Positions 1 through 10,185 of a stretch of DNA of 64,000 bases are shown here, piece by piece; position 1 is the stretch's first letter; each line of letters begins with the position of its first letter. This DNA comes from Nitrospira sp. GTDB lineage: Bacteria; Nitrospirota; Nitrospiria; Nitrospirales; Nitrospiraceae. Below the pieces are notes generated by a model. It had not been told where the DNA came from. It saw nothing but the letters and a program-made list of their open reading frames with translations, and made no database searches. Made by a program: the position numbers and the translations under genes. The stretch covers positions 1 to 64,000 of the forward strand of contig JARFXO010000009.1 of the NCBI GenBank assembly GCA_029194665.1. The letters are read 5' to 3'.

Positions 1-678
1 AAAGGTGGCCGGAAGCGGCTTGACCCGAACGACGGGATTAACGAGTTTAACGCGACGCTCGACCCGCAAGTGCCTCGTCCGACCCTTGGCGATTCTGAAG
101 CCGAAGCCCAGGGTGAATTTGTCGAGCGGCTCGACGATAATGGCTGGCACAACGGGCTCATTGCCATCGCCCCCCACGGCGGTAAAATCGAACCGCACAC
201 CGACCAGCAGGCCGAGCACCTCGCATCGCAGTTGTCGGCCAAGGGTGTCAGCTCGTGGCGGTGCAAGGGTTGGCACCCCAACGGCCCGTTTGAACACTGG
301 CACATCACCTCGATCGATATTCACGAGGCGTGCTTTCCGCTTCTCAACTCGGTCATCTCTCGCGGCTTCAAATATGCCGTCGCCTTTCATGGAGTCGACG
401 ACGACGTATCAGACGACATCCTCATCGGCGGCCTCGCGCCCGATGCCTTGAAGGAGAAGATCAAGGAAGCCATCGAAGGCGCCGTCGGCTCGGAGTTCAC
501 TGTGCGCATCACGACGCCAGATGATCAGTTCGGCGGCGATGACAAGAGGAACATCGTGAACAGACTCACGGCGGGTGGTGCAAATGGCATACAGATCGAG
601 CAGAAGGAGGCTCCGCGGGAAGAGAAAGGACTGGCCATCGCCGAGGCCGTCGCCAAGGTCTACGCCTCCAAGCTCTAA
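1..678 (+). CDS. Poly-gamma-glutamate hydrolase-like protein (PF05908/DUF867 type), 5' end outside window
   Basis: The reading frame is open from base 1 to a TAA at 676-678, so the gene starts left of the window. Visible family motifs are IAIAPHGG, the FHG triplet and a C-terminal NRLTAGGANGIQIEQ stretch. These match the zinc-dependent poly-gamma-glutamate hydrolase family (phage PghP-like), which cleaves gamma-linked polyglutamate. From about codon 20 it is close to identical to the complete copy at 6298-7176, and the bases after the stop are also nearly identical (shared start actgcgcatgataacg). It is the first gene of the left-hand duplicated unit and is followed by a PatG_C remnant and leader-type small ORFs. 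Family assignment is good; the substrate here is not known. Confidence 0.75.
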   Translation, partial: KGGRKRLDPNDGINEFNATLDPQVPRPTLGDSEAEAQGEFVERLDDNGWHNGLIAIAPHGGKIEPHTDQQAEHLASQLSAKGVSSWRCKGWHPNGPFEHWHITSIDIHEACFPLLNSVISRGFKYAVAFHGVDDDVSDDILIGGLAPDALKEKIKEAIEGAVGSEFTVRITTPDDQFGGDDKRNIVNRLTAGGANGIQIEQKEAPREEKGLAIAEAVAKVYASKL

Positions 679-750
679 CTGCGCATGATAACGAGAGAAC
701 CATCAGCCGGCCAGGGGGAGACAAAACGCGATGGCACTCTGATCACGCCA

Positions 751-837
751 TTCACGGAGAAGTTGTTCGTGCGCGTAGATGTGACCGAGGAGTTTCCGTT
801 TTTGGTGACGAAGTTGTCACCGTACTACGACCGATGA
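751..837 (+). pseudogene. Remnant of PatG_C-domain gene (last ~28 codons)
   Basis: The frame reads TEKLFVRVDVTEEFPFL, then VTKLSPYYDR and TGA at 835-837. This matches the last 28 residues of the intact PatG_C protein ending at 4864. No start or upstream domain remains: the sequence joins the hydrolase downstream region directly to the final codons, so most of the gene was deleted. It sits 27 bp before the leader ORF at 865, the same position the intact gene holds before the leader ORF at 4891. Confidence 0.7.
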
Positions 838-864
838 ACTTGAAATGATGAAGGAGGATACAAA

Positions 865-1308
865 ATGGACATGCCAAGATTTACCGGAGAGGCCTCGCTC
901 TACAAGACGAGCAGGCATTACCAAACCAGTAGACAGGTGTTCAATTTACCCGTGCCAATGGCTAGGGTGATCTCCTCGGCGATTAACGAGGGAGGCAGGA
1001 CTGTCGACTGCGACACCTGCGTGGGCGGTGAGTGCGTGGGCTGCCTCGAGAAAATGCTGCATAAAGGCAAATTCGAGGGCTTGGACCCAGGTGGCGGTGG
1101 CGGGGGAGGTGGTCCGGTTGAACCGTGCCTCAGCCACGACGAGTGCACCCCGTGCGTCTCACAGGGGCCGTCTATTTTTTCGCCGGGTCGCAGGTTTTGT
1201 CAGCACTCTGTTTGCCAGCCGACGGCTTTCGGGGGATGTAGTTGCACGGTATTCAAGGGATTCGAGAAATGCACTCCGACTCGCAATACCGGGGTCTTGC
1301 AGCGGTAG
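865..1308 (+). CDS. Leader-type Cys-rich small protein 1 (RiPP-like precursor candidate)
   Basis: 147 residues. Start ATG 865 has the ribosome site AAGGAGG 8 bp upstream. The N-terminus (MPRFTGEASLYKTSRHY from residue 3) is the shared leader of the local family. The rest differs from its neighbours: a mid part with CDTCVGGECVGCLEK, an eight-Gly run near residue 75, then a C-terminal half with about ten Cys (CLSHDECTPC, FGGCSCTVF). There is no classical signal peptide. A conserved leader with a variable Cys-rich core is the layout of peptide precursors handled by a shared enzyme or exporter. This is inferred from the family at this locus; no modification is shown. Confidence 0.6.
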   Translation: MDMPRFTGEASLYKTSRHYQTSRQVFNLPVPMARVISSAINEGGRTVDCDTCVGGECVGCLEKMLHKGKFEGLDPGGGGGGGGPVEPCLSHDECTPCVSQGPSIFSPGRRFCQHSVCQPTAFGGCSCTVFKGFEKCTPTRNTGVLQR

Positions 1309-1339
1309 GCGACCGTAACCTAAAGAAAGGAGATGTGAA

Positions 1340-1693
1340 ATGAATACCAATAGTGTTCTGCCTGGGTTTACAGCAGAAGCGTCGCTCGACAAGACCGCTC
1401 TGCATTATGCAGGAATGGTAATTAGCGCCGCTGCCCTCAACCAAATAGCGCCGCAGATCTTATTAGCCCCTGGGTCATTAACACCGTCCCTCCCACCAGG
1501 GACCTGTGTCGACATTCTCTACGCCCCAGATTGCCGTCAGGTGAATCCTTTCACAGAGTGCTGCAAGAGAAGCCATGAGCTTAAGTGTCCGGTACTTGAC
1601 TCTCCGAACTGCACGACAAGCCGAGTGGATAGTTGTACAGAATGTCGCTCCACCGTTTCGGGCTTTCCTACCAATGGGGTATTTAAGGTTTAG
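1340..1693 (+). CDS. Leader-type Cys-rich small protein 2
   Basis: 117 residues. ATG 1340 follows AAAGGAGATGTGAA, the same translation-start region found before several paralogues. The leader LPGFTAEASLDKTALHY lies at residues 7-23. The remainder is a hydrophobic-to-Pro-rich linker and then nine Cys between about residues 50 and 105 (including CCKRSHELKC and CTECRSTV). It lies 31 bp after the previous family member and reads as part of one operon-like array. Core identity with neighbours is not evident, only the leader. No function can be assigned beyond family membership. Confidence 0.6.
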   Translation: MNTNSVLPGFTAEASLDKTALHYAGMVISAAALNQIAPQILLAPGSLTPSLPPGTCVDILYAPDCRQVNPFTECCKRSHELKCPVLDSPNCTTSRVDSCTECRSTVSGFPTNGVFKV

Positions 1694-1747
1694 CCCGCGT
1701 AGAAGGATGCGGTGAACGAAGGGAACCGCATCGCTCGCAACAGCTCG

Positions 1748-1825
1748 CGTAGGCTGGGTGAGGAACGAAACCCAGCAATAACCTTGCCGCCTCGCAAGGT
1801 GCTGGGTTTATCAATCCAGCCTACG
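1748..1825. repeat. Palindromic intergenic repeat (REP-like)
   Basis: The segment begins cgtaggctgg and ends ccagcctacg, a perfect 10-bp inverted repeat. Internal arms are also inverted (gctgggt near the left end, aacccagc inside). This is the form of dispersed palindromic elements seen between genes in many bacteria. It lies between two leader-type ORFs. Confidence 0.6.
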
Positions 1826-1865
1826 GTTTCTAGCCGCAACACCAAGTAACCGAAAGGAGATTTAT

Positions 1866-2153
1866 ATGAACGCCAAGAATATGCCAGGATTTACCGCAGA
1901 CCAGTCGCTGCGCGCAGCGCGCGGGCACTACCGCAGTAGTCGGCGGCATGCATCGCACTTGGACGCTGTCATCCCCTCGATTCCGGCCTGCGCGAACTGC
2001 GATTGAATCCTTGACAATTGCGAGAGGAACGGCTGGAGGCCACGTGCCGCCTGCAATGCCTGGGCATGGGGCAATTGTGACTCGAGCGAAGAGAATCCCG
2101 GCGGGCATTGTTGGTATGATCCCATTCTCAATAGAAGGATTTGCGATTTGTGA
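1866..2153 (+). pseudogene. Leader-type small protein 3 with in-frame TGA
   Basis: ATG 1866 (ribosome site AAAGGAG) starts MNAKNMPGFTADQSL and reads 46 codons to TGA at 2004-2006. The same frame then continues for 48 codons to TGA 2151-2153, closely matching the intact 95-residue paralogue at 7949-8236 (shared IPSIPACANCD, ENPGGHC and a C-terminal ICDL). In the paralogue the stop codon is TTC (Phe). The simplest reading is a nonsense-inactivated copy. A 46-residue truncated product carrying leader plus CANCD remains possible. Confidence 0.7.
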
Positions 2154-2309
2154 GACGTGTGACTGAGGCAACCGGCATCGCTAGCCCAAGCTCTAGCCCT
2201 GCCCGATTAATCTGGCAGCCGTCTGTCTCTTGCCGGATGTTGGGCGAAGGAGCTTTCGAGCGCCACCACACATTGCGACAGGCAATTCACTAACAAAGGA
2301 GAAATGAAG

Positions 2310-2564
2310 ATGAACATGCCAGGATTTAGTGCAGAGTCATCGCTTGGCCCAACGAAGGGGCAGTACCGGGTAAAAGCCGTTCTCGAAACATTTTCCTCAG
2401 CTGGCAGCGGACCCATTGCGCCACAATTTCGTTTCTCGGCGACATCGGACCCAGATTTGGGTGCATATTTGAGATGTATAGCAAATGGCGGGAACGAGCT
2501 TGTTTGCCGCTTCTTTGGCGGACTTCCTCCCTTTACGATAGGTGGCCGTCTGATCAATCGCTGA
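2310..2564 (+). CDS. Leader-type small protein 4 (paralogue of 8314-8568)
   Basis: 84 residues from ATG 2310. An upstream in-frame ATG at 2304 is only 2 bp from the GGAG and is less likely, and the paralogue also begins M-x-MPGF. The leader is MPGFSAESSLGPTKGQY. The C-terminal part is Cys-poor (one Cys pair in LRCIANGG and ELVCRFF) and ends GGRLINR. It is about 93% identical to the copy at 8314-8568, including the sequence after the stop, so it is a recent duplicate. The small number of Cys suggests that this subfamily has a different core type from the Cys-rich members. Confidence 0.6.
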   Translation: MNMPGFSAESSLGPTKGQYRVKAVLETFSSAGSGPIAPQFRFSATSDPDLGAYLRCIANGGNELVCRFFGGLPPFTIGGRLINR

Positions 2565-2633
2565 GGAAGGATAAGGAGCAACCGAGCGCTGGTGTAACGA
2601 GGGCGGAGGTGGGTGCCGTCAGGGGATATCTTT

Positions 2634-2681
2634 TTACAGCAGCCGCCAGGTGCGGCCGTTGTGCAAGACAATCAAACGGTC
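2634..2681 (-). pseudogene. Remnant of zwf 3' end (copy 1)
   Basis: Read on the minus strand, the last codons are DRLIVLHNGRTWRLL and then TAA. They match the C-terminus of the real glucose-6-phosphate dehydrogenase gene (EADRLIQNDGRTWRLL, ending at 8638). The bases between the preceding leader ORF and this remnant also match the bases before the real zwf end, so it is the edge of a duplicated segment rather than a gene. Confidence 0.65.
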
Positions 2682-2915
2682 GCTTATTCCAAGCCGCTAG
2701 GTGCTCAAATCGGCATGCACAGAACAAGATGTGGCCCCGAACAACGAAATCTGACTTCCTGAGGATGATGCCCGCAGAATAATGTACTGGCGGGAGTGCC
2801 TCGCTGAAATCAGCACGTCATGGAGCTGCTCTTATACTGGATATGCCGCCGTCAGTGGCTTGCTTGAAAATGGTGGCTGTCGATCGCGGCCACGCGATCG
2901 GTCTGAAGCGCCAAG

Positions 2916-3134
2916 TTAGGCGGAAATGGTCTGCACAATCAGCGGCAGCTTGCTGAGTGTGAGTTGCTTCAGCTCGACCTTTTGGCTGGCATTGTCGATG
3001 TCGATCCCCACAAGCTGTCCCGCAGCGTCGTAATCCAGAACAATACCTTCAGTGACCTCCCGGCTTTTGACGCTCGGCTGTTCGGAAAGATCGATATAGA
3101 GTGAGTCGGTATCCGGATAATAGTTAAGCTTCAT
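2916..3134 (-). CDS. DUF2283 family small protein
   Basis: 72 residues, beginning MKLNYYPDTDSLYIDL, the usual opening of the DUF2283 family, with EGIVLDYDAAGQLVGIDI in the middle. This family consists of small single-domain proteins of unknown biochemical role. It overlaps the upstream gene by 4 bp (ATGA at 3131-3134), so the two are translationally coupled. Such small overlapping pairs are often toxin-antitoxin-like, but no toxin is proven here. It is transcribed against the surrounding leader-ORF array and lies in the insert between the two duplicated units. Confidence 0.7.
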   Translation of the reverse strand: MKLNYYPDTDSLYIDLSEQPSVKSREVTEGIVLDYDAAGQLVGIDIDNASQKVELKQLTLSKLPLIVQTISA

Positions 3135-3373
3135 GGTTTGAACCCTCGGTCTGGAAAAGCATTGTGTATTGTAAGCTTATCTTCGAGAGTGATCACCCTC
3201 AATATCCGTCCCTCAAGCTCCTCAGTACGACCCCAGAACCGGAAACGGTTTCCCTCTTGAGGCTCGCTTCGTAGCGCGTTCTCTAGAACCCGGATGCACC
3301 ACTCTTTCTTCAGATACGGACGTTTCCGGAGCACTTCCCTTTCAAAATATTCGGTGAATTTATACTGAACCAT
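3131..3373 (-). CDS. Small protein coupled to DUF2283 gene (possible DUF4258-like partner)
   Basis: 80 residues, MVQYKFTEYFEREVLRKRPYL at the start, then WCIRVLENAL and an RFRFWGRTEE...GRILRVITL strand-rich part. This pattern (helix, then RVW/RFWG strands, then a 'GRxLRVI' strand) resembles small nuclease-like proteins of the DUF4258/BrnT sort found beside DUF2283 genes. The resemblance is weak and the family is not certain. It is first in a two-gene operon. No Shine-Dalgarno of note is visible. Confidence 0.5.
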   Translation of the reverse strand: MVQYKFTEYFEREVLRKRPYLKKEWCIRVLENALRSEPQEGNRFRFWGRTEELEGRILRVITLEDKLTIHNAFPDRGFKP

Positions 3374-3543
3374 CTATCACACAATAGCGCATTCCCTCAC
3401 GGTTGGCCAGTCTTCCAACGAACATCAAGGATCCTTACCCATCGATAGATTAATGACGTGCCCGCCCAGAAAATTTGTAAGGATCTTGAGATTCCCAAGC
3501 CAATGAAAAGTTAGATTTCACTGTTTGTTGTCGAAGGCAGGTT

Positions 3544-3596
3544 CTTGCAGTAATCGTCAGGTGCGACCGTTGGTCACGCGGACAATCAAACGTTCG
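3544..3596 (-). pseudogene. Remnant of zwf 3' end (copy 2, more decayed)
   Basis: Minus-strand reading gives ERLIVRVTNGRT, a stop in place of Trp, then RLLQ: a degraded version of the zwf C-terminus. The following bases (cacagaacaagatgtgacc near 3632-3650) also match the bases after copy 1 (near 2718-2736), showing that the same boundary segment was copied twice here. Confidence 0.5.
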
Positions 3597-3658
3597 CTAA
3601 TCCAAAGCCAATAAGAAGTAAGATCAGCGTACACAGAACAAGATGTGACCCCAAGTCA

Positions 3659-3856
3659 GTGACTCCAAACCAACGCGAAGAGACTCCCTACCGAGTGCGC
3701 CTCCCCGGATTTCTTTCGGATGATGAAGAGATCGGCTTAGGCGATGTGGTCAAGCGAGCCACATCGTACATCGGGATCAAGCCCTGCGGCGGCTGCGAGC
3801 AACGAGCGGCCGCGCTCAACCGCTGGATGGTCTTCACGAAAGGACGGTCACGATAG
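3659..3856 (+). CDS. Small conserved protein, LPGF...GIKPCGGCEQRAAALNRW type
   Basis: 65 residues from GTG 3659. The core is VRLPGFLSDDEEIGLGDVV followed by GIKPCGGCEQRAAALNRW, with a CxxC pair (PCGGC). I recognise this as a widespread small hypothetical type but know no function for it. The 'LPGF' near the N-terminus recalls the leader of the neighbouring family, although the rest is unrelated. It precedes the PatG_C gene by 66 bp and is probably in the same transcript. The start is uncertain because no clear ribosome site precedes the GTG. Confidence 0.55.
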   Translation: MTPNQREETPYRVRLPGFLSDDEEIGLGDVVKRATSYIGIKPCGGCEQRAAALNRWMVFTKGRSR

Positions 3857-3922
3857 AGGGATGGAGGGATATTCGATGTCCCCGGTCAATCACGTTCACA
3901 CTCATGAGGAAGGAGACAGCCG

Positions 3923-4864
3923 ATGAACGAACCAACGAACCAGACGGCTCAGGTGAGAGAACAACCGGATCCACCGATCAATGGAAATGACCTGCGCCCT
4001 GCCGCACCAGCCTCTGAAGCCCGTCATAGTCACAGCACTATCTCACCGCAAGCGGGCTGCGCCACCTGTGGCGGAGCAACTGGCGTGCCCGTGAAGCCGT
4101 CATTTGTCTATGCCATAGGCCGGGTCGAAGCCCGCTTCCCGAACCTGGCAGCGGAAAAAGAATTTGCCCAGGCGACGGGACGCTCCGACACCGCAGGAAA
4201 GACCGACCAGCAGAGCTTCCATGCCGTGTTGTCCAAGCGTGAGAACCGGTACCTGGTGCGTCAGCTCTGCTGGGTTCTGACTGTTCAGGGGTTGGAAACC
4301 TATCTGTTGGTGCCTCGCGATCCGGCGGATATGGATCTGCTCGTGGAAGCCATTCGGCCGGCACCGAGCCTCAACGACATCGATGTCGTCATCGGCATGC
4401 GTGGTCCCATCGCGCCGCCGGAAATGTGCAACGGGCTGCTGGTGCCCATCGTGGCCTTTGACCAGATCTATTCCTTCAATCGTGACGCACTCATCAAGGC
4501 CATTCCCAAGCCGGAAAAGACGAAGGCCGAAGAGTTCGCCCCGGCCGCTGAGGAACTATTCAACCGCGTGATCCAACTGACCGACAACGCCGGTGCGACC
4601 GATGATCACCGTGCCTTGAACTACTTGGCCATGCGTTACCATGGGATTTATGCGAAGGCGGCGGAGGAATTCGGCAAAGATTGCTCATTGACCGGGGTAG
4701 AAGTACGCCCTTCGCCCCTGAGCGGCACGCGCAACATCGTCGATGTGATCTTCGCCTATACCAACCGCAATACCGATTATACGGAGAAGTGTTGTGTTCG
4801 CTGCGACGTGACGGAGGAATTTCCGTTCCTGGTGACAAAGATGGGGCCGTACTATGACCGGTAA
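3923..4864 (+). CDS. Cyanobactin-maturation PatG C-terminal domain protein (no protease domain)
   Basis: 313 residues; ATG 3923 has GGAAGGAG 9 bp upstream. Residues 1-45 are polar and low-complexity, with a CATC pair near 48. From about residue 56 (FVYAIGRVEARFP) to the end (TEEFPFLVTKMGPYYDR) it matches the C-terminal domain that follows the subtilisin domain in PatG proteases of cyanobactin clusters, with the recognisable blocks RQLCWVLTVQGLETY, RGPIAPPEMCNGL and DDHRALNYLAMRY. The serine-protease domain is absent, so it cannot itself be the macrocyclase. It stands directly upstream of leader ORFs, and three decayed copies of its 3' end (751, 7224, 7868) precede other leader ORFs. A role in recognising the leader is inference. 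Confidence 0.75.
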   Translation: MNEPTNQTAQVREQPDPPINGNDLRPAAPASEARHSHSTISPQAGCATCGGATGVPVKPSFVYAIGRVEARFPNLAAEKEFAQATGRSDTAGKTDQQSFHAVLSKRENRYLVRQLCWVLTVQGLETYLLVPRDPADMDLLVEAIRPAPSLNDIDVVIGMRGPIAPPEMCNGLLVPIVAFDQIYSFNRDALIKAIPKPEKTKAEEFAPAAEELFNRVIQLTDNAGATDDHRALNYLAMRYHGIYAKAAEEFGKDCSLTGVEVRPSPLSGTRNIVDVIFAYTNRNTDYTEKCCVRCDVTEEFPFLVTKMGPYYDR

Positions 4865-4890
4865 CCCTAACCGACTGAGGGAGGTGTGAA

Positions 4891-5187
4891 ATGAACGCCA
4901 TGAAAATGCCTGGATTTGCCGGCGAAGTTTCGCTTTACAAGACAATGAATCACTACCACATGATTGGGGCAATCCATCGAGCCGATGGGACTGTGCATGC
5001 CGCACAAATCGGCCTTGGCAATCCCTCTTGCTTTGTACAATGCATGCGAGAGTGTATTCAGGAGGGTTTCCCGCCTTTTCAGTGTGGTCCCGCTTGCCAC
5101 AGACAGTGTAATCCGCCAGTTACTTGTGGACCCTGCGTAGGTGTTCGGCAGTGTTCTGATGGAACCGAGATACCCTGTTCAGTGTGA
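4891..5187 (+). CDS. Leader-type Cys-rich small protein 5
   Basis: 98 residues; ATG 4891 after GAGGGAGGTGTGAA. Leader MPGFAGEVSLYKTMNHY at residues 6-22. The core has ten Cys spaced CFVQCMREC...CGPACHRQC...CGPC...C...C, ending IPCSV. It starts 26 bp after the PatG_C stop and is the first of three leader ORFs in a row. The paired CxxxC spacing could form disulfides or bind metal; this is not shown by sequence alone. Confidence 0.6.
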   Translation: MNAMKMPGFAGEVSLYKTMNHYHMIGAIHRADGTVHAAQIGLGNPSCFVQCMRECIQEGFPPFQCGPACHRQCNPPVTCGPCVGVRQCSDGTEIPCSV

Positions 5188-5294
5188 TCTATCGTGCAGA
5201 CGAAGCGAGCGTAGCTCGGACGTGAAGGAGTGACATTAAAAAATGTCCCCGGTTTACGCCATAACCGTTAAGCCTAAACATAAAGAGGTCTCAA

Positions 5295-5594
5295 ATGAAT
5301 ATTCCTGGATTTGATGCAGAATTGTCGCTTAGCCAAACCAGAGGGATATACCGAGACATGGCTGGGTTCGGCGGATCAGGAATGGGTGAAGTGTCTATGC
5401 AGCAATTAGGCAGCTTGTTCCTTACTACATTTGAGTGCTGTAAGTATGATCCATCGGTAAATCGAGTTGTATGCTTGAAGATGCTTGTGAGCCCGTTCGA
5501 CGACTGCAGCTGCCTCTGGGCACCCGGCGGGGGCCCTCGCATTGACTGCCGCCCGGGGGATATTCCTGTCGTCGACATAACACAGTCTCTGTAG
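5295..5594 (+). CDS. Leader-type small protein 6
   Basis: 99 residues; ATG 5295, preceded by AAGAGGTCTCAA. Leader MNIPGFDAELSLSQTRGIY is at the very N-terminus. After a Gly/Met-rich linker the core carries CCKYD, VCLKM, DCSCLW and RIDC. It lacks the paired CxxxC pattern of protein 5, so the cores are not simple duplicates. The 100-bp gap before it has no gene and contains a short A-rich run. Confidence 0.55.
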   Translation: MNIPGFDAELSLSQTRGIYRDMAGFGGSGMGEVSMQQLGSLFLTTFECCKYDPSVNRVVCLKMLVSPFDDCSCLWAPGGGPRIDCRPGDIPVVDITQSL

Positions 5595-5737
5595 ACCTGG
5601 TGAACGAAAGCAAAAGGAGTTGGGGTGGGGTCTTAAACCGTGCATGGCGCAGGAGAGCAGGTTCGATCTGGGGGAAACTTTCATGGCATCCTACGAATAA
5701 TGGCGGTTGAGTTACACCAACTTAAGGGAGATGTGAA

Positions 5738-6265
5738 GTGAATGCCCTAAATATGCCGGGGTTTACCGCGGATCGATCAGTTTATAGGACGAATGGTTAT
5801 TACCGGCTTTCAGCCGGAAAGGCTAACGGTATCGCCTCGCCACCGGGTTTTGTACAGCCCATGCAACTAGAGACGCCGATCCCGGGTGGAGCGTTTCCGC
5901 CCAGGTGCTTTGACTGCTTCCCCAATCCAAGTTCCGCGACCGGGTGCTCCCAGTTATGTATCAGTCGTTTTCCTTTCAGGATATTGTTGCGGAACTGTGT
6001 GGGGTGCGAGGCACAAGTCTGCGGAGGCATCGCGGGAATCCCTTGTCCTGATGCAAGCCAATATTGCGATTCTGGAATCGGGAACTGCCGGGTGGCGGAT
6101 GCGCAAGGCACGTGCAGGACGAGACCGGAGATATGTCCACTTATATTCAACCCAGTTTGCGGTTGTGATGGCAAGACTTATGGAAATGCATGTGCGGTGG
6201 CTGCTGGTGGTGTCTCAATCGATCACCAGGGCAGATGCGGTGGCGGTGATGGCGTGGTTCAGTGA
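5738..6265 (+). CDS. Leader-type protein 7 carrying a Kazal-type inhibitor domain
   Basis: 175 residues, starting at GTG 5738 (ribosome site AAGGGAG; the same GGAGATGTGAA context as paralogues, but with GTG instead of ATG). Residues 1-25 are the leader (NMPGFTADRSVYRTNGYY). The middle has many Cys pairs (CFDC, CVGCEAQVC). The last 45 residues contain the Kazal signature CPLIFNPVCGCDGKTYGNAC ending in QGRC, a secreted serine-protease-inhibitor fold held by disulfides. The Kazal domain implies that at least this product is exported and oxidised. Whether it protects the peptides or targets outside proteases is unknown. Confidence 0.7.
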   Translation: MNALNMPGFTADRSVYRTNGYYRLSAGKANGIASPPGFVQPMQLETPIPGGAFPPRCFDCFPNPSSATGCSQLCISRFPFRILLRNCVGCEAQVCGGIAGIPCPDASQYCDSGIGNCRVADAQGTCRTRPEICPLIFNPVCGCDGKTYGNACAVAAGGVSIDHQGRCGGGDGVVQ

Positions 6266-6297
6266 ACAGAGCACGTCTAACGCAAAGAGGTTGTCTC

Positions 6298-7176
6298 ATG
6301 GCCACCTATGAAGCATCAATCAAGAGAGCTTTGGATCCCGAGCAGGATGATCTCATTAAACGCAAGGAGCATTGCTCGGCCGATCGGGAAAAGTTGGAGA
6401 CAGTTGGGCGGCTGCTTGGGCATCAGGTTCGGATCAAGCGTAACAACGATGAGTACGGACTCTACACGGTTTCCGAGGTCCGCCAGGAGAGCCCGGATAA
6501 CATCGTTCGCATGGGCGAAGGTGGCCTGGCGCGACTCGATATGAACGATGGGTCTGACGCGACACTCGACCCGCAAGTGCCACGTCCGACCCTGGACGAC
6601 TCCGAAGCCGAAGACAAGGGTGAATTTGTCGAGCGGCTCGACGATAATGGCTGGCACAACGGGCTCATTGCCATCGCCCCCCACGGCGGGGATATCGAGC
6701 CGCTCACCGATGGACAGGCCGAGCACCTCGCATCGCAGCTCGCGGCCAAGGGTGTCAGCTCGTGGCGGTGCAGGGGCTGGCACCGCAAAGGGGCGTTTAA
6801 ACACTGGCACATTAATATCCACGAGGCCTGCTTTCCTCTTCTCAACTCGGTCATCTCTCGCGGCTTCAAATATGCCGTCGCTTTTCATGGGATCGAAGAC
6901 GACGTATCAGACGACATCCTCATCGGCGGCCTCGCGCCCGATGCCCTGAAAGAGAAGATTAAGGAAGCCATCGAAGGCGTCGTCGGTTCAGTTTTCAGAG
7001 TGCACATCACGACGCCAGATGATCAGTTCGGCGGCGACGACAAGAGGAACATCGTGAACAGACTCACGGCGGGTGGTGCAAATGGCGTACAGATCGAGCA
7101 GAAGGAGGCTCCGCGGGAAGAGAAAGGACTGGCCATCGCCGAGGCCGTTGCCAAGGTCTACGCCTCCAAGCTCTAA
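6298..7176 (+). CDS. Poly-gamma-glutamate hydrolase-like protein, complete copy
   Basis: 292 residues; ATG 6298 has AGAGG 7 bp upstream, and the frame upstream of it overlaps the previous gene. The N-terminal ~100 residues include LGHQVRIKRN and VRMGEGGLARL. The PF05908-type core follows (IAIAPHGG near residue 125, KYAVAFHG near 195, NRLTAGGANGVQIEQ near 260). The family hydrolyses poly-gamma-glutamate using zinc. No signal peptide is seen, so it is probably cytosolic. It opens the right-hand duplicated unit. A role in processing gamma-linked or modified peptides is speculation. Confidence 0.75.
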   Translation: MATYEASIKRALDPEQDDLIKRKEHCSADREKLETVGRLLGHQVRIKRNNDEYGLYTVSEVRQESPDNIVRMGEGGLARLDMNDGSDATLDPQVPRPTLDDSEAEDKGEFVERLDDNGWHNGLIAIAPHGGDIEPLTDGQAEHLASQLAAKGVSSWRCRGWHRKGAFKHWHINIHEACFPLLNSVISRGFKYAVAFHGIEDDVSDDILIGGLAPDALKEKIKEAIEGVVGSVFRVHITTPDDQFGGDDKRNIVNRLTAGGANGVQIEQKEAPREEKGLAIAEAVAKVYASKL

Positions 7177-7223
7177 CTGCGCATGATAACGAGAGAACCA
7201 TCAGCCAGCCAGGGGGATTACAT

Positions 7224-7510
7224 ATGACGGATAACGTGAGATCAACGGATGGCCATCGGAATCTGAACTGCCTGGTGGTGCGCTATCCCGATGTGAATGG
7301 CAGGACCGCAGCGCGGTTTGTAAAAGATTGTTCTCTGGCGGCGGGCCAAGTCCTGCCTTCGCCTTTGAGCGACACAGGCAAGATCGTCGTGGCGATCTTT
7401 TCCTATGCCAACCCAACACCGACTACACGGAGAAGCTCTTCGTCCGTGTGGACGTAACCGAGGAGTTTCCGTTTTTGAGCAGCAAGATGTCGCTGTACTA
7501 CGATCGGTAG
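7224..7510 (+). pseudogene. PatG_C-domain fragment with frameshift
   Basis: From ATG 7224 the frame matches the PatG_C protein from its TDNAGATDDHRALNY region (here STDGHRNLNCLVVRYPD, then FVKDCSL and PSPLSDTGKIVVAIF). A one-base loss near 7412 shifts the frame, after which PNTDYTEKLFVRVDVTEEF continues to LYYDR and TAG 7508-7510. Only the last third of the gene is present. It may yield a short product ending near 7457 but is best called a decaying copy. Confidence 0.75.
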
Positions 7511-7531
7511 GTTGAAAATAGGAGGCGGATC

Positions 7532-7843
7532 ATGAGCATGCCGGGATTTACCGCCAGAGTTTCACTCTATCAGACGAGCAGGCGCTATCGTGCTGTAGCT
7601 GCGGGAGCGTACGGCGGCGGGGAGCAAAGAGTCGTTTCCCAGCTTTCCGTTAATCGGTTTGATGGAATGCGCAGTGCAGGGAGTTTTGGTGATATCGGCG
7701 GATGGCTTTGTAGATTGTGGTGCAACAGTGCTGACTCAGTGTGTCTGGACGGTTGCGAAGGTACCTTGGACAATCCGAAACCATCCTTGAATTGTGTGAT
7801 TTGCGATGAGCAACATGGGGTATGTCTGGGTGCATGCGGTTGA
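7532..7843 (+). CDS. Leader-type Cys-rich small protein 8
   Basis: 103 residues; ATG 7532 has TAGGAGG 6 bp upstream. Leader MPGFTARVSLYQTSRRY at residues 3-19. A long Gly/Ala/Ser linker is followed by a C-terminal core with eight Cys (WLCRLWCNS, VCLDGCEGT, CVICDEQHGVCLGACG). The final residues CLGACG place a Cys pair at the end. It lies 21 bp after the frameshifted PatG_C fragment, mirroring the gene order at 751-865. Confidence 0.6.
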   Translation: MSMPGFTARVSLYQTSRRYRAVAAGAYGGGEQRVVSQLSVNRFDGMRSAGSFGDIGGWLCRLWCNSADSVCLDGCEGTLDNPKPSLNCVICDEQHGVCLGACG

Positions 7844-7867
7844 GGAGTAGCCGGTACGTATTAGCCC

Positions 7868-7921
7868 TTTGCACGCGTCGATGTGATCGTGACGAAGCTG
7901 CTGCCCTACTATGACCGGTAA
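7868..7921 (+). pseudogene. Third PatG_C 3'-end remnant
   Basis: The frame reads FARVDVIVTKLLPYYDR and TAA at 7919-7921, the last residues of the PatG_C protein with TEEFPFL deleted. It lies 27 bp before the next leader ORF (7949), exactly as the remnant at 751-837 lies 27 bp before 865. This suggests that the fragment hitch-hikes with leader ORFs during duplication. Confidence 0.65.
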
Positions 7922-7948
7922 AGTTCACTAACCAAGCGGAGGTACAAA

Positions 7949-8236
7949 ATGAAGACCATGAATATTCCCGGATTTACTGCAGAACAATCGCTGCACCAAA
8001 CGCGTGGATGTTATCATAGTGGCCGGTCAGTCGCAGCACGGCCGGACGCCGTCATCCCTTCGATCCCGGCCTGCGCGAACTGCGATTTCATTCTCGAGAA
8101 TTGCGAGGCAAACGGCTGGAAGCCGCGTGCCGTCTGTAATGCCTGCAATAGAGGCAGGTGCTACTCTGGTGAAGAGAATCCAGGCGGTCACTGCCGATAC
8201 GACCATGCTTCGGGTGGCATCATCTGCGACTTGTGA
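7949..8236 (+). CDS. Leader-type Cys-rich small protein 9
   Basis: 95 residues; ATG 7949 with GCGGAGG 7 bp upstream. Leader NIPGFTAEQSLHQTRGCY at residues 5-22. The core contains CANCDFILENCEANGW, VCNACNRGRCY and GGHCRYD and ends ICDL, with nine core Cys. It is the intact counterpart of the nonsense-containing copy at 1866-2153. Confidence 0.6.
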   Translation: MKTMNIPGFTAEQSLHQTRGCYHSGRSVAARPDAVIPSIPACANCDFILENCEANGWKPRAVCNACNRGRCYSGEENPGGHCRYDHASGGIICDL

Positions 8237-8313
8237 GGGCGCGGTGCGATGACACGAAGTAACCGTATCGATTGGGGTTATGAATCGTTGAATCTAGAAA
8301 GAGGAGGTGTGAA

Positions 8314-8568
8314 ATGACCATGCCAGGATTTAGTGCAGAATTATCACTTGGCCCAACTAAGGGGCACTACCGGGTGAGAGCCGCTCTCGAAACATGTTCC
8401 TCAGCTGGCAGCGGACCAATTGCGCCACAATTTCGTTTTCCGGCGACATCGGATCCAGATTTGGGCGCATATTTAAGATGTATAGCAAATGGCGGGAGCG
8501 AGCTTGTTTGCCGCTTCTTTGGCGGACTTCCTCCCTTCACTATAGGGGGCCGTCTGATCAATCGCTGA
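8314..8568 (+). CDS. Leader-type small protein 10 (paralogue of 2310-2564)
   Basis: 84 residues; ATG 8314 has AGAGGAGGTGTGAA upstream. Leader MPGFSAELSLGPTKGHY; core PIAPQFRFPATSDPDL, then LRCIANGGSELVCRFFGG, ending GGRLINR. It differs from the copy at 2310 by few residues (for example FSAESS to FSAELS, a Cys in ETCSS instead of ETFSS). It ends 69 bp from the convergent zwf stop, and that junction is repeated after the other copy. Confidence 0.6.
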   Translation: MTMPGFSAELSLGPTKGHYRVRAALETCSSAGSGPIAPQFRFPATSDPDLGAYLRCIANGGSELVCRFFGGLPPFTIGGRLINR

Positions 8569-8637
8569 GGAATGATAGAGAGCAAAAGCGCGCTGGTCTA
8601 ACGAGGGCGGACGTGGGTGCCGTCACGGGAGATCTTT

Positions 8638-10185
8638 TTACAGCAGTCGCCAGGTGCGGCCGTCGTTTTGGATCAGCCGGTCTGCTTCCACCGGTCCCCA
8701 GGTGCCGGCTTGATACTCGGGGAGCCAGCGCTGTCCCGACTTGTCCCAAGCTTCGAGGATCTGGGTGATCCAAGCCCAGGAGGCTTCGACGGCATCGCGC
8801 CGCATGAAGCGGGAAGCATCTCCGGCCATCACGTCGAGCAGGAGCCGTTCGTAGGCTTCCGGAGATGGTCTGCCGAAGACCTCGCAGTACTTGAAGCTCA
8901 TCTCGACCGGATGAGTTTGCTCGCGGGTGCCAGGCACGCGGGAGACGATGCGGAGCGTGAGCCCTTCCTCAGGCTGAATTTTTAACGCCAGCACGTTTGG
9001 AGCTTGAGGCGTTTGTCCGCCGGGATTGAAGAGAATCTGAGGGATCTCTTTGAATTGGACGGCGACTTCGCTGGCCCGCAGGGGCAAGGCTTTCCCAGTC
9101 CGCAAGTAGAACGGCACGCCGGACCAACGCCAGTTTTCTACGAAACATTTCACGGCCACGTAGGTTTCAGTGGTGGAGTCCGGCTTCACGCCCTTTTCAC
9201 GGCGATAGCCTGGCACCGGCGTGCCATGGGCCGTCCCCTCCGTGTATTGGGCCCGCACGGTAAACTTGCCCACATCCTTGGCCGTGATGGGCCGCAAGCA
9301 ACGAAGGACTTCCATCTTGGCGTTTCGGACGACGTCCGGATCTAGCGAATAGGGCGGTTCCATCGCGACGAGACAGAGCAATTGAAGCATATGATTCTGG
9401 ATCATGTCCCGCAGCGCGCCAGCTTCTTCATAGTACGTGGCCCTGGTCCCCACGCCTTCGGCTTCGCTGACAGTGATCTGGACGTGGTCGACGTATTTGT
9501 AGTTCCAGATCGGTTCGAAAATGCTGTTGGCGAAACGTACGACCATGAGATTCTGAACCGTCTCTTTGCCCAGATAATGATCGATGCGGAAAATCTGCGA
9601 TTCGTCGAACACGCGTCCGGTCACCTCGTTGATGGCCTGAGCAGAGGCCAAGTCACGCCCGACTGGTTTTTCCACGATGATGCGCGTATAGGGCGGACGA
9701 GTCGCCGGGGTCCCTGCAAGACCGGAACGGGATAAGCCTTCGCAGACTGCGGTAAACGAACTGGGGGGAATGCTCAGATAGAAAATACGATTCCCCGGTA
9801 GTTGAAATCTCCGCTCGAGATCCTCGGCACGTTCCTTTAGTCGGGTATAGGTTTGTGCGTCGTCATTTCCTCCCGCCAAATAAAATAGGTGCTGAGAAAA
9901 GGCGTTCCACTTCTCTTCGATTAAAGCCTGCCGGGAATGTTTGACCACGCCGTCTCGGACGCTGGCTCGGAACTCGTCATCGCTCATGGGGGTGCGGCCT
10001 AAGCCGAGCACGACGTAGTTCGACGGCAGCAATCCGTCGAGAAGCAGATTGTAGACCGCGGGGATAAGGCGTCTGCGGGCTAGATCTCCCGAGCCGCCGA
10101 AAATCACCAACGTACAAGGTTCGAAGGACGGCAGCGGTTCTTGGGCAGGACTGATGTCGATCCGTTGACTAGTCGTGTGGGCCAT
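8638..10185 (-). CDS. zwf: Glucose-6-phosphate 1-dehydrogenase
   Basis: 515 residues, about the usual family length. It oxidises glucose-6-phosphate to 6-phosphogluconolactone, the entry of the oxidative pentose phosphate path. Motifs: NAD(P)-binding GGSGDLARRR near residue 30, EKPVG near 172 and the active-site RIDHYLGKE near 200. A second ATG was chosen as start (10185) because GGAGG lies 5 bp before it; an in-frame ATG four codons upstream (10197) is the alternative. It is followed on the same strand order by gnd upstream (10388-11281), the next oxidative enzyme. Its 3' tail is duplicated twice at 2634 and 3544. Confidence 0.95.
   Translation of the reverse strand: MAHTTSQRIDISPAQEPLPSFEPCTLVIFGGSGDLARRRLIPAVYNLLLDGLLPSNYVVLGLGRTPMSDDEFRASVRDGVVKHSRQALIEEKWNAFSQHLFYLAGGNDDAQTYTRLKERAEDLERRFQLPGNRIFYLSIPPSSFTAVCEGLSRSGLAGTPATRPPYTRIIVEKPVGRDLASAQAINEVTGRVFDESQIFRIDHYLGKETVQNLMVVRFANSIFEPIWNYKYVDHVQITVSEAEGVGTRATYYEEAGALRDMIQNHMLQLLCLVAMEPPYSLDPDVVRNAKMEVLRCLRPITAKDVGKFTVRAQYTEGTAHGTPVPGYRREKGVKPDSTTETYVAVKCFVENWRWSGVPFYLRTGKALPLRASEVAVQFKEIPQILFNPGGQTPQAPNVLALKIQPEEGLTLRIVSRVPGTREQTHPVEMSFKYCEVFGRPSPEAYERLLLDVMAGDASRFMRRDAVEASWAWITQILEAWDKSGQRWLPEYQAGTWGPVEADRLIQNDGRTWRLL

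Follow-up and report, generated by a model that had tools for sequence, protein, structure and literature searches.

Does the open reading frame (ORF) at positions 5738–6265 of a Nitrospira sp. contig encode a genuine Kazal-type protease inhibitor domain behind a leader like those of ribosomally synthesised and post-translationally modified peptides (RiPPs), and how might such a protein be matured? The gene was analysed within a window of 64,000 nucleotides (assembly GCA_029194665.1, contig JARFXO010000009.1, positions 1 to 64,000 of the forward strand), in which an earlier sequence-only reading had seen a Kazal signature at the C-terminal end of a leader protein. The ORF does end in a genuine Kazal domain, which lies within a follistatin-like/Kazal unit and follows a leader, MPGFTAExSLYxTxxxYR, that defines a real family.

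The Kazal domain and its selection

The ORF is open, starts with GTG and is preceded by an AAGGGAG-type ribosome-binding site just 5' of the start. Its parts are as follows.

5738–6265, + strand: leader-tagged follistatin-like/Kazal protein, 175 residues (Pfam, phmmer, substitution rates, AlphaFold2)
5738–5818, + strand: leader peptide, residues 1-27, VNALNMPGFTADRSVYRTNGYYRLSAG (leader alignment; profile match E=5.9e-12)
5906–6007, + strand: middle Cys-rich segment without known family, residues 57-90, six Cys (dN/dS 0.03-0.09)
6008–6238, + strand: follistatin-like and Kazal unit, residues 91-167, ten Cys, putative P1 residue Leu135 (Pfam, model, alignments)

Residues 126-167 were covered by the whole Kazal_1 model (PF00050; E=3e-9, score 37.2 bits, cut-off 21), and Kazal_2 matched as well (E=1.9e-5). 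Solved Kazal inhibitors were retrieved by phmmer, namely ovomucoid (3.7e-9), silk protease inhibitor 2 (2.5e-8) and leech tryptase inhibitor (3.5e-8). The cysteine spacing, C126-x6-C133-x7-C141-x10-C152-x14-C167, is that of C1-C2-C3-C4-C6 in the family, so that the proposed signature withstood the profile search. A strict, C5-demanding Kazal pattern (PROSITE-style) did not match the window domain, because C5 is absent and an extra cysteine, C143, is present. The resulting 'CGC' form without C5 is common to the bacterial Kazal relatives aligned with the window protein, and judged by these alignments the window domain is of this bacterial form. C5 is not demanded by the Pfam Kazal model and is absent from solved four-cysteine members; silk protease inhibitor 2 has only four cysteines in the stretch aligned to the window domain.

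An AlphaFold2 model built with 49 sequences had predicted local distance difference test (pLDDT) values mostly above 89 over residues ~91-167, which are thus confidently predicted to adopt a Kazal fold, and low values in the remainder. The model was placed near leech tryptase inhibitor, silk protease inhibitor 2 and follistatin by Foldseek (1an1_I, 0.4 Å over 36 columns, E-values only ~1e-3) and VIA-align 2 (Z 7.4 against 1an1_I); these scores are middling, in keeping with a domain of only ~40 residues.

The window protein shares 89% identity with a copy in genome G055 and 79% with a paralogue that bears two Kazal units and lies on contig C5 of the window's own genome. The ratio of non-synonymous to synonymous substitution rates (dN/dS) was 0.079 against G055 and 0.17 against C5 in the follistatin-Kazal part, and this low value indicates that the gene is under purifying selection as a protein; the leader gave higher values, about 0.42-0.46, from few changes. 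A chance or wrong-strand ORF was ruled out by the conservation and the dN/dS. Across 79 Nitrospira genomes, every intact Kazal domain found stood behind the MPGFTAE leader (window, C5 and G055); outside this setting only two apparently frameshifted remnants were found. These remnants (L112 in G021, L113 in G055) adjoin DNA ~92% identical to the neighbourhood on C5. In other bacteria, a Nitrosomonas Kazal unit was up to about 72% identical to that of the window, and matches also turned up on Sinorhizobium meliloti and Eleftheria plasmids. The S. meliloti protein was rejected as leader cargo, having an N-terminal hydrophobic, signal-like stretch and a neighbourhood without the leader motif.

The leader family, its cargo and its partner genes

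The leader alignment gave the consensus MxMPGFTAExSLYxTxxxY, and the pattern ATGCCNGGNTTYNNNGCNGA occurred 4 times in the window, where 0.01 occurrences would be expected, which excludes chance. A leader profile found 44 matches in seven of the 79 Nitrospira genomes, one of them marginal (G024, E=1.3e-3). PatG_C occurred in nine of the 79, among them all six clear leader genomes, an overlap with a chance of 3e-7 if genomes were independent; this figure is only a guide, since the genomes are related and some matches are tandem copies. In 43 of 44 cases the leader match shared the strand of a PatG_C match and followed it at a distance of 33-5670 bp. Many of the 36 alignment rows came from an initial collection around PatG_C genes, and that these were recovered is no surprise; the informative part of the search is that the genome-wide profile scan gave almost no matches elsewhere. 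The leader was not found in 398 sampled Pseudomonadota genomes, a sample that shows little because rhizobial plasmids do carry it.

The recurrent gene order is S8 subtilase, a small protein with the motif GIKPCGGC, a stand-alone PatG_D/C protein (the domain of unknown function, DUF, of PatA/PatG) and leader ORFs, and the same set with leader ORFs was found on Mesorhizobium and Streptomyces plasmids. Neither the leader nor the small protein was covered by any Pfam or NCBIfam model. The S8 proteins have intact Asp-His-Ser active-site motifs and no signal peptide. They match the protease part of TIGR03895 (PatA/PatG) and the PatG_D/C proteins its later part; the window copy also matched the solved PatG DUF (PDB 4UVQ, E=1.7e-4). 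By these matches the system looks like PatA/PatG machinery divided over two genes. Fused S8-PatG proteins exist in the genus too (G055:C13, G058:C113 and G062), none of which was seen to have an MPGFTAE leader nearby. At L099, L100 and L101, fused S8-PatG genes have nearby short ORFs with M[RK][LI]P-type starts, possibly a second leader class. At L119:6904-7140, the small GIKPCGGC-type protein itself starts with a leader-like stretch (MSIPGFTAETTVHES) and may for this reason also be a substrate. A defence system and a phage origin were both rejected: PADLOC gave only weak generic subtilase matches, and no PatG_D/C relative was confirmed in viral contigs.

The leader ORFs combine a conserved leader with a variable core, as is expected of RiPPs. 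Their cargo comprises the Kazal proteins, Stig1 repeats (in a 724-residue protein at L111) and many Cys-rich cores without assigned family. The suggestion that Cys-rich domains are carried by the family was supported, with Stig1 as a second recognised type. Cysteines numbered 11.4 per 100 residues in cores and 0.4 in leaders, and 45 of 49 cores had an even count, which fits disulfides, but also metal sites. A second Stig1 protein (L110) has a start that is only divergently leader-like, and a further S8 protease (PF00082, E=1.4e-50) lies directly behind the Stig1-repeat protein, at L111:3808-5169. A knottin-like tail at L107:5537-5974 (Toxin_7, only E=0.086) is not claimed.

The remaining features of the system in the window are listed below; the leader ORFs were identified with the leader profile.

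865–1308, + strand: leader-tagged Cys-rich ORF, 12 Cys
1340–1693, + strand: leader-tagged Cys-rich ORF, 8 Cys
1866–2006, + strand: leader ORF of 46 residues, shortened by a stop relative to 7949–8236 (also by comparison)
2304–2564, + strand: leader-tagged ORF, 2 Cys
4891–5187, + strand: leader-tagged Cys-rich ORF, 10 Cys
5295–5594, + strand: leader-tagged Cys-rich ORF, 6 Cys
7532–7843, + strand: leader-tagged Cys-rich ORF, 8 Cys
7949–8236, + strand: leader-tagged Cys-rich ORF, 8 Cys in the core
8314–8568, + strand: leader-tagged ORF, near-copy of 2304–2564
3659–3856, + strand: small conserved protein, RLPGF...GIKPCGGC...AALNRWMVF, beside PatG_D/C in most loci
3923–4864, + strand: stand-alone PatG_D and PatG_C protein, 313 residues (4e-35, 1.5e-32)
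748–825, + strand: PatG_C gene remnant just 5' of the leader ORF at 865
7221–7498, + strand: broken PatG_C gene just 5' of the leader ORF at 7532

Positions 1-8666 carry tandem modules in which a gamma-polyglutamate hydrolase (PF05908) is combined with a PatG_C piece and leader ORFs; identity is 91% between 6557-7217 and 50-719, and 90% between 8302-8666 and 2297-2662.

Proposed maturation and function of the Kazal protein

Slightly favoured overall is a route in which the S8/PatG-DUF system takes off the leader and thereby releases a secreted, disulfide-rich inhibitor. The Cys-rich follistatin-like/Kazal protein would be synthesised as a leader-tagged precursor and its leader recognised by the two-gene form of PatA/PatG, that is, the signal-less S8 protease and the stand-alone PatG_D/C protein, together with the small GIKPCGGC protein. 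The subtilase for the window precursor would be supplied by the sister locus on contig C5, where an S8 gene shares the locus with a Kazal gene and may serve both copies. We infer that the protease would cut after the leader in the cytoplasm, perhaps near an 'hVxPQ'-like stretch present in most precursors; as the partner enzyme is signal-less, cytoplasmic removal is the more direct reading. The released part would then exit the cytoplasm, form its disulfides and fold oxidatively, and the Kazal loop, with Leu135 as P1, would block an extracellular serine protease of the chymotrypsin, elastase or subtilisin type. The domain, the leader family, its gene linkage, the selection and the confident model are established; recognition and cleavage of the leader, export, disulfides, inhibition and its target are inferences.

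On export, the sequence-only reading had argued that a Kazal domain folds outside the cytoplasm and that the leader must allow or direct its passage. The first half held up: elsewhere, as in Nitrosomonas and Bacteroidota, the Kazal unit is preceded by a Sec or lipoprotein signal and is therefore normally extracytoplasmic, which makes an extracytoplasmic product of the window gene likely. Export directed by the leader found no such support, as neither a hydrophobic segment nor a recurring transporter was seen. The best 15-residue hydrophobicity mean in the leaders was 1.75 (median 0.72), compared with 2.15-2.37 in three Sec-borne homologues, and a Sec or lipoprotein signal in the leader was ruled out.

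Several observations weigh against the proposed route. A hydrophobic stretch of the Sec kind is missing from the leader, and the leader loci share no recurring transporter or disulfide enzyme. No S8 gene was convincingly matched in the window (best tblastn E=0.32), leaving the precursor without an adjacent protease gene. The candidate cleavage motif 'VxPQ' is only loosely defined, and the corresponding stretch of the Kazal protein, FVQPMQ, is a poor match to it. The domain lacks the canonical Cys5, and with it the C1-C5 disulfide, and has the additional C143; its P1 residue varies between copies (Leu, Phe, Asp). Counted by cluster, even cysteine numbers occurred in 12 of 15 (p=0.018), a modest significance obtained with a crude clustering.

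The change of P1 to Phe and Asp would also suit a Kazal unit that acts as a structural or binding follistatin-like module, the system then delivering a coat, adhesion or competition protein. The pairing of the domain with a follistatin-like part and the many sibling leader ORFs without an inhibitor-like domain point the same way, yet the Kazal loop and cysteine frame are retained at a dN/dS of about 0.08 and the closest structures are true inhibitors, so that we regard this explanation as unlikely, though it survives better than those that follow. A less probable arrangement is that the leader stays uncleaved as a tag for export or assembly, with PatG_D/C and the small protein as its recognition platform: Kazal and Stig1 are extracytoplasmic cargo types, as this would require, but an intact S8 protease neighbours most loci and no membrane component recurs in them.

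The Kazal domain might instead regulate the S8 maturation protease, inhibiting its own processing enzyme, as had been suggested from the sequence. P1-Leu Kazal domains such as the ovomucoid third domain inhibit subtilisin-like enzymes, and S8 and Kazal genes share one locus on C5. This idea fared badly. Intact Kazal cargo was found only in G000 and G055 and in none of the other four Nitrospira genomes with the leader, so that the system is kept without the domain in four of the six clear leader genomes, and the signal-less S8 probably meets the domain in a reducing compartment only; we consider such regulation quite improbable, and the domain is unlikely to serve generally as an inhibitor of the maturation protease. 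Least credible of all is a classical RiPP with cysteines modified by unlinked enzymes and an incidental Kazal likeness, which would suit the leader/core layout and the RiPP-type protease family but not the conserved Kazal and follistatin cysteine frames that Sec-exported homologues share, nor the distribution of YcaO, which five of the six leader genomes lack and the other has only at an unlinked position.

Known systems and significance

Cyanobactin maturation (PatA/PatG; TIGR03895, PF18047, PF18065) likewise brings together an S8 protease, a PatG DUF and leader-bearing precursors in one locus. In the leader loci, however, protease and DUF are separate genes, and the cores are long and Cys-rich, whereas those of cyanobactins are short cyclic peptides. 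No PatE-like short core with PatA/PatG recognition sequences was found among the leader ORFs. No core-modifying enzyme recurs in their loci, though one may be encoded elsewhere. In the YcaO search control genomes were positive, and the leader genome with the unlinked YcaO was G063; YcaO is not part of every cyanobactin cluster. A cyanobactin cluster was excluded on YcaO and core shape, though the parts are related.

Compared with other Kazal inhibitors (PF00050; leech, silk, ovomucoid and bacterial Sec-exported forms), the window protein has the cysteine frame, the loop and the predicted fold, and differs in standing behind a non-Sec leader. MXAN_6577-like/Stig1 proteins (NF041328, PF04885) are Cys-rich cargo behind the same leader at L111, with a domain different from Kazal. 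A further likeness is to QhpC, the gamma-subunit of quinohemoprotein amine dehydrogenase (QHNDH), a Cys-rich protein with a non-Sec leader and an S8 partner. Its leader is removed in the cytoplasm by the S8 protease QhpE before export of the folded subunit, the transporter being QhpF (PMC7876137). As a non-Sec leader on a Cys-rich protein cut before export, it is a precedent for S8 leader removal. The leader-locus S8 also gave a score to the QhpE model, though below its cut-off. The leader family and cargo are nevertheless unrelated, and no radical S-adenosylmethionine enzyme or ATP-binding cassette transporter recurs in the leader loci.

No open-licence paper was found to describe MPGFTAE leaders, a role of this kind for these Pfam families, Kazal domains joined to RiPP leaders or the system as a whole. 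RiPP clusters have been reported in all Nitrospira examined, and the available part of that account does not name the MPGFTAE-leader type (PMC9765116). The PatG DUF is described as conserved in cyanobactin pathways and unexplained in function (PMC4259220). Its role becomes testable here, since it has a gene of its own that lies immediately upstream of the leader-tagged substrates.

The locus links a protease inhibitor domain best known from animals to RiPP-type processing. It may tentatively be viewed as part of a Sec-independent leader pathway that matures and delivers whole disulfide-rich domains by means of a split PatA/PatG and the GIKPCGGC protein, with the PatG DUF recognising the leader. 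This suggests that RiPP-like leaders can carry whole disulfide-rich folded domains, beyond small modified peptides.
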